A DNA stretch of 64,000 bases from Sporolactobacillus kofuensis. GTDB taxonomy: Bacteria > Bacillota > Bacilli > Bacillales > Sporolactobacillaceae. Below, in pieces: positions 7,230 through 28,854 of the stretch; the stretch's first letter is position 1; every line of letters begins with the position of its first letter. Below the pieces are notes generated by a model. That model did no database searches. It worked only from the letters and a program-made list of their open reading frames with translations, and was not told the origin of the DNA. A program made the translations under genes and the position numbers. The stretch is taken from assembly GCF_024125425.1 (NCBI RefSeq), contig NZ_JAMXWN010000004.1:62001-126000 (forward strand), given 5' to 3'.

Positions 7230-8666
7230 TTATTTGATGATACCAAATTGATCGATAATATACGGATCGTCGGTGCCCTTGATCCGATCAATCTCGTAGA
7301 CAACAACGGAGAGCTTATTTTTACTAATCGTGACGCTCGAAAAGTTCTGGACGGCACCGCGCACTGGACGCGTCGGATCGCTTGGATCAAGTCCGTATTT
7401 CATGGCATGATTTTCTTCGGCACGGACAAATTTGTTATAAAATGTATCACCGAGCACCGGATCTGTATTTTTCTTGTAGACTTTCGGACCAGATGTTGCC
7501 GGGATATAATAGATTGCACCATTCGGTTTTACGGTATAGTCAATTTTTTCGCCATTCATCCATTCTGTTATTGTTGTTGGCTGTGTTGCTTGATTATTCT
7601 TGTTGATTGGCAAAGTGCGTGCATAGATGTGGTCGTGCCCCTGGATTACCAAATCAACCCCAAGCTTTCCAATCAAGGGTGCAATCTGGTATCTGACACC
7701 GTTTTGGTCAATAATATCTGAATCGGTCGCATGATTGGATGTCGTATACGGTCCTTTGTGAATCAGGACGACTGTCCATTTCGCACCATTTTTCTTCGCC
7801 TTTTTAATGTCCGCCGTCACCCATTTCACTTGTTCCGGCGTGAAATCACGATATTGTTCGGAGTCTTCGTTTGTATTCAGGACAACAAAATGCGTGTTGC
7901 TATAATTGAAGGAGTAATAAGCACCTGTTTTTGTGTCTTGATTCTTTGTTGCCATTTTCAAATTAAAGTGATCAATAAACGCATAATTCTTGGCTTCATG
8001 ATTTCCAGCAGCTGGAACCACCGTTGTATTGCCCCAAACGCTGCGGCTGTTGTTGATTAGCCAGTCCCATTGATCTTCCTCAACACCGTTATCGACAAAG
8101 TCCCCGGTTACAGTCATAAAATCATAATTTTTTACGGTTTCTGCTGCCTTGTTAAATGTATCCGCAGCCAGTTTGCCTTCATCCTCTGTTTTTGCTTGTG
8201 GGTCGGTCAGTTCTAGGAACGTGAATGCACCATTTTTTTTGGGTGCTGTTTTGACCGTGTCGATCTCGCTCCAAATGTTCTGCTTTGCATCGCCGACACG
8301 ATAATAATAGTCTGTATCTGCTTTTAATCCTTTCGCTTCAGCCTTATGGACCCGCTCGCCACTGTCATTTCTCGACACATAGCTTATCCCTTTGAACGTC
8401 AGCGCCTTTTTGAAGTCTGGCTTTTTGACGCTCTTACCCAACTTCTTGACCAGTTGAAGATCACTTCCAGAAGATTCGAGATTCGTATACCAGGTGAAAC
8501 CTTTATTTGTCCGCGAGTCACCATTAAAAGTTGGCACGACTTTCTTGACAATCGGTTCGGCAGTCTTTGCGGAAGCACGCTGTGAAAATCCGGAAGACAC
8601 CGAAAACATAGTAAACAGCAGAGACATAGTGACAGCAACAGTCAGCATCTTAACTCTAAACGTCAA
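7230..8666 (-). CDS. Secreted purple-acid-phosphatase-like metallophosphoesterase
   Basis: The product (478 residues from TTG at 8666) begins with a signal peptide (MLTVAVTMSLLFTMF ... SASA-like cleavage region), then a fibronectin III-like purple acid phosphatase N-domain (about 45-140) and a calcineurin-like phosphoesterase domain (about 145-420). Metal ligands are visible as LTDPQ, VTGDFVDNG, AAGNHEAK, VLIHKGPY and GHDHIYAR. It should release phosphate from organic esters outside the cell. The ribosome site AAAGGGAG is 9 nt from TTG 8666; a TTG at 8675 abuts it and is unlikely, and an ATG at 8648 is possible. It is monocistronic with its own terminator. A Pho box was not recognised, so phosphate control is only an expectation from the family. 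Confidence 0.93.
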   Translation of the reverse strand: MTFRVKMLTVAVTMSLLFTMFSVSSGFSQRASAKTAEPIVKKVVPTFNGDSRTNKGFTWYTNLESSGSDLQLVKKLGKSVKKPDFKKALTFKGISYVSRNDSGERVHKAEAKGLKADTDYYYRVGDAKQNIWSEIDTVKTAPKKNGAFTFLELTDPQAKTEDEGKLAADTFNKAAETVKNYDFMTVTGDFVDNGVEEDQWDWLINNSRSVWGNTTVVPAAGNHEAKNYAFIDHFNLKMATKNQDTKTGAYYSFNYSNTHFVVLNTNEDSEQYRDFTPEQVKWVTADIKKAKKNGAKWTVVLIHKGPYTTSNHATDSDIIDQNGVRYQIAPLIGKLGVDLVIQGHDHIYARTLPINKNNQATQPTTITEWMNGEKIDYTVKPNGAIYYIPATSGPKVYKKNTDPVLGDTFYNKFVRAEENHAMKYGLDPSDPTRPVRGAVQNFSSVTISKNKLSVVVYEIDRIKGTDDPYIIDQFGIIK

Positions 8667-21920: not shown

Positions 21921-22235
21921 CCTATATTCTCCCTCTCATACTCAATTTCACATAATCTCCATACTTTTATTATAGGCAAAAGATCCTGAGGTAGAAAGAG
22001 AATATTAAATCAATAAGATCCCGAATTAATTACCCTTATTATTTTCATGAATGATTTCTGCGCTCAACAAGTATCGTGTCATGAGGTCAGTCCGACACAG
22101 TCATCCTTTCAATTTGGATCATCGTTTTCTCCGCCATTCATTGATTTCCTTATCCATGCGTTTCAATAAAAAGAAGATACCTTTATTTATCCCGAAAAAA
22201 CCGACTGAACTCCGATCAGCATTCTATAAAAACAA
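21921..22235. other. Intergenic region without a recognised gene
   Basis: About 315 bp between the flavin reductase promoter side and the terminator of the ECF operon. Nothing was recognised apart from AT-rich sequence. Confidence 0.4.
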
Positions 22236-22260
22236 ACCGCAGGCTTATTCTGCCTGCGGC
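22236..22260 (-). terminator. Terminator at the end of the ECF/creatininase operon
   Basis: On the minus strand GCCGCAGGC and GCCTGCGGT form a stem around AGAATAA and TTGTTTTT follows. Confidence 0.9.
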
Positions 22261-22307
22261 TGTCCTTCTTGTTCGTCGAGCTCGTTCATGAATAAAACGT
22301 TTATGAA

Positions 22308-22865
22308 TTAAACTCTTGGAATAATTGTCTGGATTCTTTTCAATCTCGGTGCCAACAACAACACAACAAATGGTGTGAGCGCAATTGGCACAACATCCGC
22401 GATGCCAATCCAAATGACACAGTACCAGTAACCAAGTCCTGTAAAGAAGGACAGTGAGAAACTCGTAGCAAGAATCATCAAGCATCCGAAAAGTAATGAC
22501 CAGAACAGTGATTGCCAAATGAAAGCTGCTTTGTTCTTAAGCAGTTCATCAAGAGATTTTCTCCGCGTCATCACATAAGAAGGCAGCGCTGCACTAAGCG
22601 CAACGGTAAGGCCATCGGCGATAAGCGTATGGGGAGCAATAAAGTAGCCCCCCAGCAGAGACCAAACAAGCGTACCGATATACCCTGCAAAAAAGCCGGA
22701 TACAGGTCCGAAAAGAAATCCAATAACAGGAATAATAAATGCGAACGTTCTGAAATGTACAGCACCAGGGATCAAAGGAATCGGACTTCCGTACGCCCAA
22801 AGAACACCTGTAAATACACCGAAAATAACAAAAAAGATAATGTTGACAAAGGTGAATTTCTTCAC
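22308..22865 (-). CDS. ECF transporter substrate-binding (S) component
   Basis: A 185-residue membrane protein with six hydrophobic segments, of ECF S-component size. FVNIIFFVIFGVFTGVLWAY at the start and FGPVSGFFAGYIGTLVWSLL in the middle resemble the thiamine-precursor/HMP-type S components (YkoE-like), but this assignment is weak. It would bind a small substrate and deliver it to the EcfT/EcfAA module encoded upstream in the same operon. Starts with GTG behind GGAGG (9 nt). It lies 14 nt after the creatininase gene and ends the operon with a terminator at 22236-22260. The purine riboswitch at the operon head points to a purine-like or pyrimidine-like ligand. Confidence 0.87.
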   Translation of the reverse strand: MKKFTFVNIIFFVIFGVFTGVLWAYGSPIPLIPGAVHFRTFAFIIPVIGFLFGPVSGFFAGYIGTLVWSLLGGYFIAPHTLIADGLTVALSAALPSYVMTRRKSLDELLKNKAAFIWQSLFWSLLFGCLMILATSFSLSFFTGLGYWYCVIWIGIADVVPIALTPFVVLLLAPRLKRIQTIIPRV

Positions 22866-22879
22866 GGGGTAACGCCTCC

Positions 22880-23659
22880 TTAATAATTTGTTTTTGCAAA
22901 AGTAGAAATAATATTTTTAAGCTCTTTGACTGCATAGTCGAAGAGCCTTTTGCCCTTTTCAGCGGTTGCATAGGTTGGTGCCCCAATGACGCCGCTCTTC
23001 GTAACATCTGCCGTTTTCCAACCCGCATTATACGGACCGAACAGTGTCACAAAATCATTATCACGCAGCGCTTCAACAGGTTCCTCATCAACGGCAAGTT
23101 CCATATGTACAGTCTCCGGTGCCGCGTGCAGCATCAGGGAAGTTTCGAGTTCGCACGCATGGAAAACACCATATTTTCCAGACTGTTTTAGTCCCTCAAG
23201 TCCTTTGTCCCAGAATGAAGTGAACCACCAATCAAACACAAAGACATCCATACCAAAGTCAATTCTTAAATCACGGCTGATCATGTTCAACATATCGGTA
23301 TTGCCGCCGTGGCTATTAAACAAAACAAGTTTCTTAAACCCGCTTTGAGCGATCGCTCCGGAAAGATCGTGGAGAACTGAATAATACGTTTGCGTGCCAA
23401 AAGTGATGGTCCCTGCAAAGCCCATATGCTCATTACTTTTGCCAACATTCAGCTGCGGGGCAAAAATCAGCGTACCTTCATCAAATGTTTGGGTTTCAAT
23501 GAAGTGATCAATTAAAGAAGAGAGAATAATAGAATCCGTTCCTACAGGCAGATGTGGTCCATGCTGTTCCGTAGCTGCTGTTGGAAGGAAAACGATTGCC
23601 GATTCTTTATCAATTGCTGCAAGTTCATCACGCGTCAAATTTTCCCATTTTGTAATCAT
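22880..23659 (-). CDS. Creatininase family amidohydrolase
   Basis: A 259-residue creatininase-fold enzyme. The metal ligands are visible: Glu and His in TEQHGPHLP, Asp in VGTDS, His in NSHGGNT and Glu in HACELETS. The family includes creatinine amidohydrolase, MftE peptidase and ArfB, which deformylates a ring-opened purine nucleotide. Here the gene sits inside an ECF transporter operon with a phosphoribosyltransferase under a purine riboswitch, so hydrolysis of an imported cyclic amide, formamidopyrimidine or similar base is a reasonable inference; creatinine itself is not supported. ATG at 23659 follows GGGAGG with 8 nt spacing. Confidence 0.9.
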   Translation of the reverse strand: MITKWENLTRDELAAIDKESAIVFLPTAATEQHGPHLPVGTDSIILSSLIDHFIETQTFDEGTLIFAPQLNVGKSNEHMGFAGTITFGTQTYYSVLHDLSGAIAQSGFKKLVLFNSHGGNTDMLNMISRDLRIDFGMDVFVFDWWFTSFWDKGLEGLKQSGKYGVFHACELETSLMLHAAPETVHMELAVDEEPVEALRDNDFVTLFGPYNAGWKTADVTKSGVIGAPTYATAEKGKRLFDYAVKELKNIISTFAKTNY

Positions 23660-23728
23660 TGTACATATCCTCCCATTTATTAATTTGCAAATAATAGTTG
23701 AGATCAGACAAGTAAGCGGTTGTCCTAC

Positions 23729-24595
23729 TTAAATCGGAATGTAATAGTGAACTTGTAAAACGATCGTAACCACAGTGGCAAGAACAGTCACTGCACTGAA
23801 AAACAGATCCGAAGACGTTGCCTTAATCATCTTGTAAGCCGTACGCTGTACTTTAAAATTCAACTTATAGTAATGCATCGCAAGAGAAATGGCATGTCCT
23901 TTGCTGAGTACGCGAAACAAGAGTGGTAGGGACACAATGACATAATTTTTCAACTTCGCAAATGTGCTGCATTTATCCACTTCGAGTCCTCGAGATTTCT
24001 GTGCTTCCATGATGGTCGCAAATTCTTGAACAATCATTGGAATGATCTGGAAGACAAGACCAACGCCAAAAGCAATCGCATACGGGACTTTCCAAGAACG
24101 TAAACCCAAGATGATTTGACTGAAATTCGTCGTTAAGATCACTGTGTAAAAGGCTGAGATCATTAAGAAAATCCGTAATGCATATACAGCACCTTTGTAA
24201 AAGTCGAAGGCCTCAAGACTAACTACAAAAGGATGACCAAAAATTGAAAATGCTGTTCGGAAGAGCACAGGTCCTTCATTTATTGTAAAAATGCCAAGAA
24301 CCAACCAAAGCAAGAAGATAAATAGGAGCAGCACTTTGATTTTATCTAATAAGACAAGCATGTACTGACCAATTCGGCCAACCAGCCAGATTGCTAGAAA
24401 CACAAGAAAAAGAAACAGTAGTGCTACGCCGCTTTTTACAAAGGAAGTGAGAATCGACATGATGATGAAAAAGAGAAATTTAGTTCTTGGATCAAGTCGA
24501 TGTAAATACGTGTTTAAGTCAACATATTGCAAGAAGTCACCCAATGTCTGTGCCCCCAATAGCTTCTGATCGATTGCTTTGTGCACTGTCAACAA
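23729..24595 (-). CDS. ECF transporter transmembrane (EcfT) component
   Basis: A roughly 270-288-residue membrane protein of the EcfT/CbiQ family, linking the ATPases to the S component. LNTYLHRLDPRTKFLFFIIM is the standard N-terminal motif; the coupling helices contain EAQKSRGLEVD (Ala-Arg-Gly type motif, here SRG) and a second KGHAISLAMHYY segment. The frame opens with TTG at 24595, which overlaps the ATPase gene by 59 nt; no ATG lies before the family start, so the true start is probably one of the TTG codons near 24560-24547 after GGGGG or GGGTGA. That uncertainty affects only the first 12-16 residues. Confidence 0.88.
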   Translation of the reverse strand: MLTVHKAIDQKLLGAQTLGDFLQYVDLNTYLHRLDPRTKFLFFIIMSILTSFVKSGVALLFLFLVFLAIWLVGRIGQYMLVLLDKIKVLLLFIFLLWLVLGIFTINEGPVLFRTAFSIFGHPFVVSLEAFDFYKGAVYALRIFLMISAFYTVILTTNFSQIILGLRSWKVPYAIAFGVGLVFQIIPMIVQEFATIMEAQKSRGLEVDKCSTFAKLKNYVIVSLPLLFRVLSKGHAISLAMHYYKLNFKVQRTAYKMIKATSSDLFFSAVTVLATVVTIVLQVHYYIPI

Positions 24596-26240
24596 GCGGC
24601 AAAATCATGTCCTTTAATTCATCGACCGTGCAAGCTAAGCGATTCAATCCAAGTTTTCTTGATAGCTTAACAACTGGCGGTAGATCAATAGTGATCTTAT
24701 TAAATAACGTTTCCTCACCGGCCAGTTCTTGTTTACTTCCTTCATCCAGCTTCTCTGCATGATCTAAAATCAATAATTGATCAGAAATTTTGAAAACAAG
24801 TGGTATTTCATGACTAATCACAATCACGGTCTTTCCCTTGCTCTTAAGGTCCCTGATGATTTCTTCCAAATAGTTTCTCAAATGAAGATCCATACCCAGT
24901 GTTGGTTCATCAAGTATGATCACCTCTGCACTCGAGAAAAGAACAGAAAGAATGGTAAGCAAGTGTTTCTTACCCATGGAAAGATTGACCGGGAGTTCAT
25001 CTTGGTCCTTAAGCAAATCATATTTTTCAAGCACTTCTCGTGCCTCTTTTTCACTGAACGGAATACCTTGAGCTCGGGCACAGAAGGTCAACTCTTTGTA
25101 GACATTTTCTTCAAAGAGCATGTGTTCCGGATGTTGAAAGACGAGAATAATATCCCGGCTAATTTCAGCGACAGAACGATTTGTTGTTTCAGCACCTTTA
25201 TAAGTAATCGTTCCTTCAGTTGGTCGATAGAGCCCATTCAGATGCTTGACAAGTGTCGTTTTTCCGGAACCATTCTGTCCCAAAATCGAGATCACTTTCC
25301 CTTTTTCAAAGCCAGTATTAATCTGTTTTAATGCTTGGAACCCATCTTGAAAACTCTTGCTGAGGTCATGCACCGACAGAATCGAATCTGAGTGCTCATT
25401 TCCACGTTCTTGAGTGGAGGTTGTCGATTGCTTATGAGTTAAATGTTCTTGTATATGCTCAACGGCACCCTCCAGAGTAGAAAAAGGCTTTAATCCAGGG
25501 ATGATTTTCGAGAGTTCGCCAAAGATTTCAACTTCTTGTGGAACGATCACACCGAGTCGTTTCTGCACAGCAAATTGTGCAAAAAATTCCTCCTTGCTCC
25601 CGTCGAACACCACTTCACCATGATCCATTCCGACAACATGATCGACAATATCTGCAGACCAATCTAAATTATTGTCCACAATAACCGTTGTCTGTCCGGA
25701 TCCCTTAAGATCATTCAAGACCGATTGGATCATCTGTTTGCCTCGAGGATCGAGTGAGCTCACCGGCTCGTCCATAATCACAAGATCTGGGCGCATGGCT
25801 AAAACGGAAGCAATGCAGACCGCTTGCCTTTGTCCACCTGATAATGTGCTTACTGCACGCTTCCTTAAATGCTGAATATGTAAGAGATCGAGTACTGATT
25901 CTACACGGCTGTGAATTTCTTGACTATTGAGGCCCATATTCTCAACCCCAAATGCAATCGCATCCTCAACGCCATAGCCAAACAACTGATTTTCCGGAGT
26001 TTGACTCACAACCGAGATAACAACATCCTCTCCGGCATGAAAATGGCCTGAGAGTTCTCCTTTGGTTAGCAAAGTTGGAATGACCCCGCTCAATATACTC
26101 ACTAACGTCGATTTACCGCATCCGCTTGGTCCTACAATAGCAGTGACTTTCTTCTCTTGAATATCAATATTAATATTTTTTAAGACTTGGGGTGCTTCCG
26201 GGCTATATTTATAACTTACCTTTTTAAGTTGAAAACTCAC
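24537..26240 (-). CDS. Double ABC ATPase of an ECF transporter (EcfA1-EcfA2 fusion)
   Basis: A 567-residue protein with two ABC ATPase domains (about 1-235 and 290-520), as in YkoD. Domain 1 has Walker A GPSGCGKST, signature LSGGQ and Walker B LVIMDEPVSSLDP. Domain 2 has Walker A GQNGSGKTT and Walker B VIILDEPTLGMDL, but its signature reads NLSMGKKHLL instead of LSGGQ, so one composite ATP site is degenerate. It would power uptake with EcfT and the S component encoded downstream. Start follows a good ribosome site 18 nt after the phosphoribosyltransferase gene. Confidence 0.93.
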   Translation of the reverse strand: MSFQLKKVSYKYSPEAPQVLKNINIDIQEKKVTAIVGPSGCGKSTLVSILSGVIPTLLTKGELSGHFHAGEDVVISVVSQTPENQLFGYGVEDAIAFGVENMGLNSQEIHSRVESVLDLLHIQHLRKRAVSTLSGGQRQAVCIASVLAMRPDLVIMDEPVSSLDPRGKQMIQSVLNDLKGSGQTTVIVDNNLDWSADIVDHVVGMDHGEVVFDGSKEEFFAQFAVQKRLGVIVPQEVEIFGELSKIIPGLKPFSTLEGAVEHIQEHLTHKQSTTSTQERGNEHSDSILSVHDLSKSFQDGFQALKQINTGFEKGKVISILGQNGSGKTTLVKHLNGLYRPTEGTITYKGAETTNRSVAEISRDIILVFQHPEHMLFEENVYKELTFCARAQGIPFSEKEAREVLEKYDLLKDQDELPVNLSMGKKHLLTILSVLFSSAEVIILDEPTLGMDLHLRNYLEEIIRDLKSKGKTVIVISHEIPLVFKISDQLLILDHAEKLDEGSKQELAGEETLFNKITIDLPPVVKLSRKLGLNRLACTVDELKDMILPLVDSAQSNRSEAIGGTDIG

Positions 26241-26258
26241 GATCCTGTCTCCCCTGGT

Positions 26259-26822
26259 TTACTGAATAGATTCAGATGGTTCAATTGGGAATAAAGGCAA
26301 TTTTTCCAGATAAATAATATCATCGCGATTGATGGCATCATCACCTTCAGCAAGGATTGCCGCCTTACCCACCAATATTCCACCAGCCATCTTAATCAAT
26401 TTCTCTAAAGCACGCACTGATTCACCTGTACTAATGACATCATCAACAATCAGTATCCGTTTTCCCTTGATTAATTCACTTTCATCCTTTTCGATACAAA
26501 GCAATTGTTTTCTTTGCGTTGTAATCGAATATACCTCTGAAATAAACGGATCGCTCATATAAGGTTTAATACTCTTGCGTGCGACAAAGTACCGTTTTTT
26601 ACCTTTAATTCTGGACAATTCATGAATAAGCGGTATCCCCTTAGCTTCCGCCGTAATATAGTAATCCGCCTCTGGAATAAGATCCTTAAGTTCTGCTGCA
26701 GCTGCGCTCACCAATTCGGTGTCGCCTAAGATGACAAAACTAGCAATCTTAATATTATCTGCAATACGTACAACCGGCAGTTTACGTTCAACTCCTGCCA
26801 CTTTCAAAATAAATTCATCCAT
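26259..26822 (-). CDS. Purine/pyrimidine-type phosphoribosyltransferase
   Basis: A 187-residue type I phosphoribosyltransferase. The PRPP-binding motif ILIVDDVISTGESVRAL is intact at about residues 122-138; YFVARKSIKPYM precedes it as a flexible-loop region as in adenine and xanthine enzymes. It would attach ribose 5-phosphate from PRPP to a free base. ATG at 26822 follows AGGTGAT. It is the first gene of the operon and lies directly behind a terminator-type purine riboswitch, so guanine-like ligands should shut it off. Which base it uses is open; the coupled creatininase and ECF genes suggest an imported purine or ring-opened purine. Confidence 0.9.
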   Translation of the reverse strand: MDEFILKVAGVERKLPVVRIADNIKIASFVILGDTELVSAAAAELKDLIPEADYYITAEAKGIPLIHELSRIKGKKRYFVARKSIKPYMSDPFISEVYSITTQRKQLLCIEKDESELIKGKRILIVDDVISTGESVRALEKLIKMAGGILVGKAAILAEGDDAINRDDIIYLEKLPLFPIEPSESIQ

Positions 26823-26866
26823 TTTCTATCACCTAATTCCTAGTAATAATTGTTTAGTAGAAAAGT

Positions 26867-26899
26867 AAAAAAAAAGACAGAGAACTGGTGTCCTCTGCC
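26867..26899 (-). terminator. Riboswitch-controlled intrinsic terminator
   Basis: On the minus strand GGCAGAG pairs with CTCTGTC and nine T follow. Its loop carries ACACCA (26886-26891), which can pair with TGGTGT of the aptamer P1 3' strand (26983-26988). That gives a simple antiterminator versus terminator choice. Confidence 0.85.
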
Positions 26900-26980
26900 T
26901 TTTGACAGTTTCCAGAAAATCATGGTAAGTGAACTACTTTTCTCAACGATTAGAATTTCACGAATGATCATCAGGAATAA

Positions 26981-27053
26981 GAACACCATAGTGCAGGCAA
27001 TTATGGTTGCCGCGTAGAAACATCTGCACCAAATTTGCAGACTTATATGGTTT
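26981..27053 (-). promoter_or_regulatory. Purine riboswitch aptamer (guanine-type)
   Basis: Read on the minus strand: P1 ACCATA with TATGGT; J1/2 TAA; P2 GTCTGCA with TGCAGAT; loop L2 AATTTGG (conserved GG); J2/3 GTTTCTAC, fully conserved; P3 GCGGCA with TGCCTGC (one bulged T); L3 ACCATAAT with the conserved CC; J3/1 AC followed by TATGG. The C in J3/1 is the guanine-specificity base of this class. A TATAAT lies just upstream and a terminator follows about 85 nt downstream, before the phosphoribosyltransferase ATG. Ligand binding should stabilise P1 and favour termination, an OFF switch. The bulge in P3 and the L2 sequence are slightly atypical, so a variant ligand should be considered. Confidence 0.87.
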
Positions 27054-27057
27054 CATG

Positions 27058-27063
27058 ATTATA
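27058..27063 (-). promoter_or_regulatory. Candidate -10 box of the riboswitch transcript
   Basis: TATAAT on the minus strand lies just before the aptamer, so transcription would start within a few bases of P1. No good -35 hexamer is seen at 16-18 bp. Confidence 0.5.
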
Positions 27064-27153
27064 TGTAATTCGACTTAATTCGATCTATTCATTAATAAAA
27101 CTATATCACTGTAATAATTTTTTGGCAAATGATTATTGAGTAAACTAATTTTT

Positions 27154-28113: not shown

Positions 28114-28854
28114 TTATTCAAGTGCTTTTATTCTAAAGCGTACTTGAGTCACTGATCGACCGGACTTTAATGGTTCATAAGTAATCCTAAAGGTACCCGT
28201 TTGATTGATTTCCTCAATGGCAGGTTCAATGACTCTTCGTTTCAAGTCCGCCCATCGCTCGAGCTTGCCTTTGCCCACATCAGCAAGATAGCGCAGTTGA
28301 TCCAAAGTGAGCGTAAGTTCAGGAATCTCTTGTCCTTGATGAATACGAAACAATTCATAGAGTCGTGAGCTGTACTTACTTTTCAATTGGCTATCGAGCA
28401 TAATCGTTTCATAGTTCAATGTCTGGAAGCGTTCATGTAAACAAACAATGTATGGATAGAGTGTCGGGCTCATATCTATTAAGAACTCTTCATTTTCATG
28501 ATCATAGATTACTGTTTGAATCCAGTTCGTCAAGACCTCATGTTTCATGCCTTCGGTTTGTGTGACCCAAAAAGAATGATTCCTGATTTTCAGGAGAATA
28601 GCCTTCACTTGCTCCGGGTCATCCGTAAAGTCCGGTAAAATAGCGGCAACTTTTGAAACCGATAGATGACTATAAGGGTGGTTTGTTTCAACCATGCAGA
28701 ATTTTATGAGGTGAAAAAGCAGCTGATTTTCAATGATCCCCATCTTTTGATGCGTTTCTTTAAATAATTTATTCGCCCGTACAAGCCAGTATACCCTGTC
28801 TTTAATTGGTTTTAGATAAATTTTGTCACCATAGTGTTCCGGATTATTTATCAA
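28114..28854 (-). CDS. Rep_3-type replication initiator protein
   Basis: A 246-residue protein with the double winged-helix layout of plasmid Rep_3/RepA initiators. The C-terminal half is diagnostic: SRLYELFRIHQG, LTLDQLRYLADVGKGKLERW and DLKRRVIEPAIEEINQTG, which matches the conserved RepA segment ending in PAIEEIN. On plasmids such proteins bind iterons and open the origin. Starts with TTG behind AAGGAG (10 nt). I see no iteron array in the flanks. It may be a relic of an integrated plasmid or a domesticated regulator. An inverted repeat (28893-28930) lies directly upstream. The small HTH gene downstream may belong with it. Confidence 0.85.
   Translation of the reverse strand: MINNPEHYGDKIYLKPIKDRVYWLVRANKLFKETHQKMGIIENQLLFHLIKFCMVETNHPYSHLSVSKVAAILPDFTDDPEQVKAILLKIRNHSFWVTQTEGMKHEVLTNWIQTVIYDHENEEFLIDMSPTLYPYIVCLHERFQTLNYETIMLDSQLKSKYSSRLYELFRIHQGQEIPELTLTLDQLRYLADVGKGKLERWADLKRRVIEPAIEEINQTGTFRITYEPLKSGRSVTQVRFRIKALE

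Follow-up and report, generated by a model that had tools for sequence, protein, structure and literature searches.

The stretch analysed here, referred to as the window, comprises 64,000 nucleotides of DNA from the lactic-acid-forming Sporolactobacillus kofuensis (contig NZ_JAMXWN010000004.1, positions 62,001 to 126,000), and its subject is a reverse-strand operon encoding a phosphoribosyltransferase (PRT), an energy-coupling factor (ECF) transporter and a creatininase-family hydrolase. Judged by its sequence, the operon is headed by a purine riboswitch of the guanine type, with guanine as the predicted ligand. The operon is real, conserved and coherent, and the logic of its riboswitch is ordinary. 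We consider it fairly probable that it imports a purine base or purine fragment and ribosylates it, under repression by guanine. The initial annotation had proposed uptake, hydrolysis and ribosylation repressed by guanine. Covariation, an expression platform common to the leaders, conservation of the gene order and parallel loci back the riboswitch, the OFF logic and the joining of uptake with ribosylation. The formamidopyrimidine or deformylase reading of the hydrolase gained no specific support in an analysis that made no comparison with ArfB.

Purine (RF00167) was the sole Rfam family above its gathering threshold in the window when this was searched with covariance models (cmscan). The aptamer recognised in the initial annotation at 26981-27053 proved to be the core of this match. 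The elements of the leader are as follows.

27100-27128, reverse strand: predicted sigma-A-type promoter (TTGCCA, 17 nucleotides, TATAGT, with TG before the -10; 10/12 matches in a consensus scan)
26969-27070, reverse strand: purine riboswitch aptamer, guanine-type (RF00167, 65.6 bits, threshold 37, E 3.1e-9)
27013-27007, reverse strand: 5' strand of P3 in the aptamer layout
27000-26993, reverse strand: 3' strand of P3, with a bulged U at 26995
26981-26988, reverse strand: 3' strand of P1 with its extension, UGGUGUUC, which belongs to both aptamer and antiterminator
26872-26903, reverse strand: intrinsic terminator, 14 pairs followed by a T run, also found in the leader fold

For comparison, 41 loci were fetched by means of the hydrolase (L004-L044; G labels denote genomes), and the window aptamer was aligned with those of 13 relatives. 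The C in J3/1 that had been taken as the mark of the guanine type is C74, base 26991; of the other ligand-contact positions, U51 is base 27016 and U22 is also kept. All three are constant in 14/14 operon aptamers, as are the kissing bases (GG in L2, CC in L3), which the window aptamer shares. In the Rfam alignment the window aptamer has one inserted base in P3, and its L3 is one base shorter than that of the other 13. The 14 aptamers were aligned with MAFFT without regard to structure, and 95.8% of the 308 cells over 22 named pairs can pair. Double-sided changes were found in 7 of the 22 pairs, with P2 and P3 covarying (0/500 shuffles as high), counts that are inflated by related rows. One covariation measure, the number of further pair types, did not rise above shuffles (198/500 as high). 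The predicted fold of the leader from 27056 to 26855 contains P1, P2, P3 and the terminator and has an energy of -54.8 kcal/mol (z -4.1; 0/200 shuffles as good). The whole genome holds three RF00167 matches. By eye, the second (L001/L110) precedes purE/purK and other pur genes and has a purine-permease-like gene on its other side, and the third (L002/L111) precedes an amidohydrolase-like gene.

The pairing of the terminator with the 3' strand of P1, pointed out in the initial annotation, was recovered, its partner being the 5' arm of the terminator. GGACACCA (26893-26886) is complementary to the shared strand (26988-26981), and the duplex reaches -14.1 kcal/mol (0/300 shuffles as strong). A script found this pairing in 12 of the 14 leaders at -11.2 to -14.1 kcal/mol, with at most 2% of shuffles as strong; L017 fits it by eye, with a terminator other than the one chosen by the script. 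Such pairing corresponds to the OFF layout known from classical guanine riboswitches. Promoter-like sites in the region hardly exceed shuffles (15 vs 12.4); by eye, TTGCCA or TTGCTA stands ahead of TATAAT in 6 of the 7 Sporolactobacillus leaders L004-L010, the L006 leader sequence ending there.

Common to all 14 operon aptamers are a G-C pair closing P3 and a single bulged U in its 3' strand, while the second P3 pair covaries (C-G in 8, U-A in 6). The combination of bulged U and closing G-C pair was seen in 0/49 comparison purine-riboswitch loci. The search pattern was written from the 14 aptamers and so matches all 25 operon loci by construction, several of these being second fetches of the same aptamer. 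Among 398 genomes of the class it matched one, G015, and among 46 genomes around G009 it matched two, G009 itself and G474, in each case at the operon; these numbers say little about how common the sub-variant is, since the pattern is unable to find the window's own copy with its shorter L3 and only two of the 398 genomes come from the window's genus. Model R1, built from the 14 aptamers, scored the operon copies at 106.8-115.6 bits against 67.6 bits for the best other match in 58 genomes, a gap partly built in, as operon copies or near-copies trained the model. The same model applied to L012 and L018-L043 yielded nothing credible (best 16.5 bits, E 1.1, in L028).

Such a conserved deviation might mean that the aptamer has switched its ligand, e.g. 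to xanthine, 8-oxoguanine or another purine derivative, and that the operon responds to that compound. Its constancy in 14 operon aptamers and absence from the 49 comparison loci speak for this, and guanine-aptamer variants with other ligands exist (PMC9295807). However, U22, U51 and C74 are unchanged in all 14 aptamers, and the P3 changes lie outside the contacts that PMC9295807 names. Because the three contact bases are unchanged, we keep a ligand switch only as a rival, and an unlikely one.

The guanine-II riboswitches have insertions in J2-3 (one base) and J3-1 and are predicted to be ON switches in Paenibacillus (PMC9295807). They resemble the operon aptamers in having PRT genes directly downstream, in keeping U22, U51 and C74, and in occurring in Firmicutes, but here the Rfam alignment of the window aptamer has one inserted base in P3, and the layout is OFF. 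The additional bases of the operon aptamers may be interpreted as a P3 containing a bulged U. Assignment to guanine-II was not adopted: instead of an ON layout, the P1 3' strand pairs with the 5' arm of the terminator. Two Paenibacillus loci (L070, L071) carry purine-riboswitch variants with a longer J3-1 that resemble the published xanthine-II and guanine-II kinds; by eye, one is followed by a Rieske-type gene and one by a gene resembling inosine monophosphate dehydrogenase. The conserved bulged-P3 sub-variant offers a small natural series for ligand tests.

The genes named in the initial annotation, i.e., a PRT, EcfAA, EcfT, a creatininase homologue and an S component, were identified again with Pfam and NCBIfam models, the S component by its predicted fold. 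In the order of transcription, they and the terminator behind them are as follows.

26259-26822, reverse strand: PRT of the PRK07322 subfamily (NF005592, 227.4 bits, cut-off 143), with the motif IVDDVISTG of the type that binds phosphoribosyl pyrophosphate (PRPP)
24537-26240, reverse strand: fused energy-coupling ATPases EcfA-EcfA (TIGR04521, 362.3 bits, cut-off 330; TIGR04520, 345.2 bits, cut-off 315)
23729-24595, reverse strand: EcfT (PF02361, 92 bits, cut-off 25)
22880-23659, reverse strand: creatininase-family metallohydrolase (PF02633, 232.4 bits)
22308-22865, reverse strand: ECF S component (PF07155, 25.1 bits, just under the cut-off of 26.7; predicted fold)
22235-22261, reverse strand: intrinsic terminator 3' of the S gene (10 pairs, 7 of them G-C, T-rich tail)

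The PRT had its best PDB matches in two entries named as PRTs for adenine and for adenine/guanine (5zgo and 6fsp) and in 7f06, an adenine phosphopsicosyltransferase. The fused ATPases contain two Walker A and two Walker B motifs. Homologues compared by eye suggest that EcfT starts at a TTG close to 24544, so that its gene would overlap that of the ATPases. With two ECF ATPases, an EcfT and an S component, the operon encodes a dedicated (group I) ECF transporter. The terminator at 22261-22235 is likely the end of the operon. A gene for a Rep3-type replication initiator (28114-28854, reverse strand; PF01051, PF21205) is located about 0.55 kb upstream of the gene preceding the operon; pur genes, too, are present on this contig of 241 kb.

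The S component gave no sequence match in the PDB at E up to 1, and a Foldseek search of the PDB gave none at E 0.001 or better (best 1.8e-3). Its AlphaFold2 model has a predicted local distance difference test (pLDDT) value of 87. VIA-align placed 40 of 774 chains at Z of at least 8, the lipoprotein acyltransferases beginning at Z 8.3, the lowest of these. The first 22 rows are S components of the ECF type, among them metal and cobalamin kinds. The best was 4hzu_S (Z 17.2, root-mean-square deviation 2.7, 161 residues aligned), a hydroxymethylpyrimidine transporter. This closest solved fold could be taken to mean that the cargo is a pyrimidine or a vitamin precursor (e.g. hydroxymethylpyrimidine-like), under purine control merely as its product would feed a purine-linked cofactor. 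We regard such a cargo as very unlikely: S components of similar fold can differ widely in substrate, the closest relatives of the PRT are adenine-type PRTs, and no thiamine pyrophosphate riboswitch rose above the Rfam threshold in the 41 loci.

The model of the hydrolase (pLDDT 90.5) had 3no4 as its top Foldseek match (TM-score 0.77). By fold and by the pattern E31/H33/D42/H117, the protein resembles the creatininase family (creatininase, MftE, IolN, ArfB). The presumed metal ligands E31, H33, D42, H117, H167, E170 and E172 do not vary among 17 sequences, and the hydrolase displays, at the sequence level, the metal-site pattern general to the creatininase superfamily. It differs from creatininase, MftE and IolN in scoring below the curated cut-offs (TIGR04448 for creatininase EC 3.5.2.10, 111.2 vs 235 bits; TIGR03964 for MftE, 131.8 vs 172; NF041098 for IolN, 74.4 vs 245) and in having Gly119, in all 17 sequences, where creatininase has Glu122. 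The latter is presumably a metal ligand in creatininase, and E122Q mutants are among the PDB matches listed. In a plasmid collection only remote relatives of the hydrolase were seen, all below 60% identity.

The comparison of creatininase-family genes beside ECF genes showed that the five genes stand in one order in 28 of the 41 loci, from Sporolactobacillus and Clostridia; L019 is a further case, cut by a contig end. RF00167 was matched in 13 of these 28 loci and in none of the remaining 28 of the 41. A hydrolase tree was rooted at its midpoint, and with unlabelled rows left out of the count, a single change accounts for the riboswitch rows (support 83/47). The Sporolactobacillaceae rows lie within the clostridial rows, which suggests lateral transfer. 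Of 15 Sporolactobacillus genomes, 8 contain both the hydrolase and the high-scoring riboswitch, and the other 7 have neither. In L012, which lies inside the riboswitch clade and is without a riboswitch, a gene at 1662-2705, a transposase by eye, ends 200 bp before the PRT; the riboswitch was apparently lost by insertion where relatives have promoter and aptamer. The riboswitch-less operon loci L018, L020-L031 and L037 have no purine riboswitch upstream of the PRT. Among three genomes with such loci that were searched whole, G006 and G007 had no RF00167 match and G008 had one, elsewhere, before a permease-like gene. Two Sporolactobacillus species (L008, L010) have a match to a group II intron domain (RF02005) at 7456-7690, about 0.1 kb after the operon.

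PRTs of the same subfamily were also found outside this operon. In the clostridia G469 and G484, a purine riboswitch of canonical form (79.9 and 83.7 bits) is followed by a probable nucleobase permease and then by a PRT 62-63% identical to that of the window. In G009, a second PRK07322 gene adjoins a clear PF00860 permease (129.9 bits). Altogether, the permease link was present for 3 of 7 PRK07322-type genes outside the operon; to the extent that this link applies, the ECF transporter seems to take the place of a nucleobase permease.

Relatives of the hydrolase, 49-56% identical to that of the window, were found in seven microcompartment loci (L032-L036, L038, L039). Bacterial microcompartment (BMC) shell, EutN and UbiD genes were present in 7/7 and adenine deaminase in 6/7, L035 ending before its expected place; none of these was in the other 34 of the 41 loci. 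Related ECF genes occur in five of the seven (EcfAA/EcfT 39-60%, S 45-66% identical). One Paenibacillus locus (L101, L036, L102) encodes an adenine deaminase (TIGR01178, 476.9 bits, cut-off 472.5) and, according to family models, a DeoD nucleoside phosphorylase, UbiD, UbiX, DUF1989, a cyclase, an M20 enzyme and shell families, along with an isochorismatase-family enzyme closest to BiuH and RutB, below their cut-offs. This locus and L103 are microcompartment loci with adenine deaminase, UbiD/UbiX, a creatininase-family enzyme and a dedicated ECF transporter. Since the hydrolase misses the curated cut-offs and has relatives in loci with purine enzymes, its substrate would rather be a ring amide of a purine or imidazole.

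Loci of this kind have been named BUF (PMC4207490), and one type among them has since been predicted to break down xanthine (PMC6620236 and PMC8156839). The predicted pathway assigns one step to a five-ring hydrolase (PMC6620236). In our reading, this enzyme may be the creatininase-family gene product and the seven loci may belong to the xanthine type. The operon could be catabolic: the ECF transporter would import a purine or purine fragment as a nitrogen source, the hydrolase would open a ring, e.g. that of 4-imidazolone to formiminoglycine, as proposed for the five-ring hydrolase, and the PRT would divert part of the flux. The related hydrolases and ECF genes of the microcompartment loci, with their UbiD and adenine deaminase, argue for such a role, as does the xanthine pathway predicted in PMC6620236.

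A chemical consideration points the same way, as 4-imidazolone resembles creatinine. However, the genome of the window has 0 UbiD matches, and the formiminotransferase N domain PF07837 was found in 0/12 genomes, five microcompartment ones and the window genome included, in a search whose positive control matched in 1/14 named genomes. The window genome thus lacks both UbiD and formiminotransferase, the pair expected of the Xau/BUF1 pathway, and the full predicted pathway is either absent or different; moreover, repression by guanine suits salvage better than nitrogen scavenging. We therefore rate a catabolic role as improbable. As PF07837 is absent from the five microcompartment genomes examined, the pathway of these loci may itself differ from the predicted xanthine route (Xau). 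UbiD also occurs in Lachnospiraceae G006 and G007, about 26-36 kb from the operon and beside a UbiX-like gene, and no link was taken from it; the stretch around it shows no purine genes by eye, the part of G006 nearest the operon lying outside the fetched DNA.

Under guanine-repressed salvage, the system would work as follows. When guanine is scarce, the 3' strand of P1 would pair with the 5' arm of the terminator and the operon would be transcribed. The dedicated ECF transporter (S, EcfT and the fused ATPases) would import a purine base or a purine-derived N-heterocycle, and the PRK07322 PRT would add phosphoribose from PRPP to it. The hydrolase might attack a ring amide in the compound taken up, prior to its ribosylation, or else clear a by-product. 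Once guanine is bound, P1 would be locked, the terminator would form and expression would stop. Because the hydrolase and ECF genes co-occur in salvage and microcompartment settings, the hydrolase probably acts on the imported compound or an early product.

Several observations weigh against this scheme. As 15 of the 28 five-gene loci are without an RF00167 match, guanine control of the operon is not universal, and in L016 the P1 3' strand is changed and the OFF pairing does not fit. The permease of G469 scores 22.6 bits with PF00860, under the cut-off of 27, and that of G484 gives no match; the PRK07322-type genes of G010, G011, G488 and G499 have no adjoining nucleobase permease by eye, those of G488 and G499 scoring under the family cut-off. 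The S-component structures closest to the model are mostly, by title, those of vitamin transporters. Finally, the aptamer with its covariation, the OFF layout, the gene content and the conserved gene order are observed, and the ligand guanine, a cargo of purine type and the sequence of enzyme steps are predictions.

A bolder version has the operon recovering not a purine but a fragment of one, either an imidazole or a ring-opened purine, e.g. from purine fermenters: an ECF transporter of new specificity would import it, the hydrolase would trim it, and the PRT would ribosylate it straight into a purine-synthesis intermediate, with feedback by guanine. We put this forward as a doubtful proposal. 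If true, it would be a new route into purine nucleotides, and we are aware of no earlier ECF transporter for a compound of this kind.

Vitamins and metals are the cargoes for which ECF transporters are chiefly known. The combination of a dedicated ECF transporter with a guanine-type riboswitch and a PRT leads to the directly testable prediction that the cargo is of purine type. In the literature searched, which left out most subscription papers, no link of a guanine riboswitch with creatininase, or with an ECF transporter for purines, was found. The hydrolase recurs in microcompartment loci whose pathway is so far a prediction, and knowledge of its reaction would help to settle both.

Among known systems, the Xau/BUF1 loci (PMC6620236, PMC8156839, PMC4207490) are matched by the creatininase-family enzyme, the deaminase and UbiD in the seven loci found here and by ECF genes in 5/7. 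In contrast to them, the window operon has no shell gene or UbiD beside it, and has a PRT and a riboswitch instead.

A further comparison is that with the salvage operons of the xpt-pbuX type in Bacillus. Like these, the operon combines a guanine-type riboswitch and a terminator-based OFF switch with a PRT and a nucleobase importer, the last being a putative function here. It departs from them in having an ECF importer in place of a one-gene permease, a PRT of the PRK07322 type, an extra creatininase-family hydrolase and an aptamer with a bulged P3.

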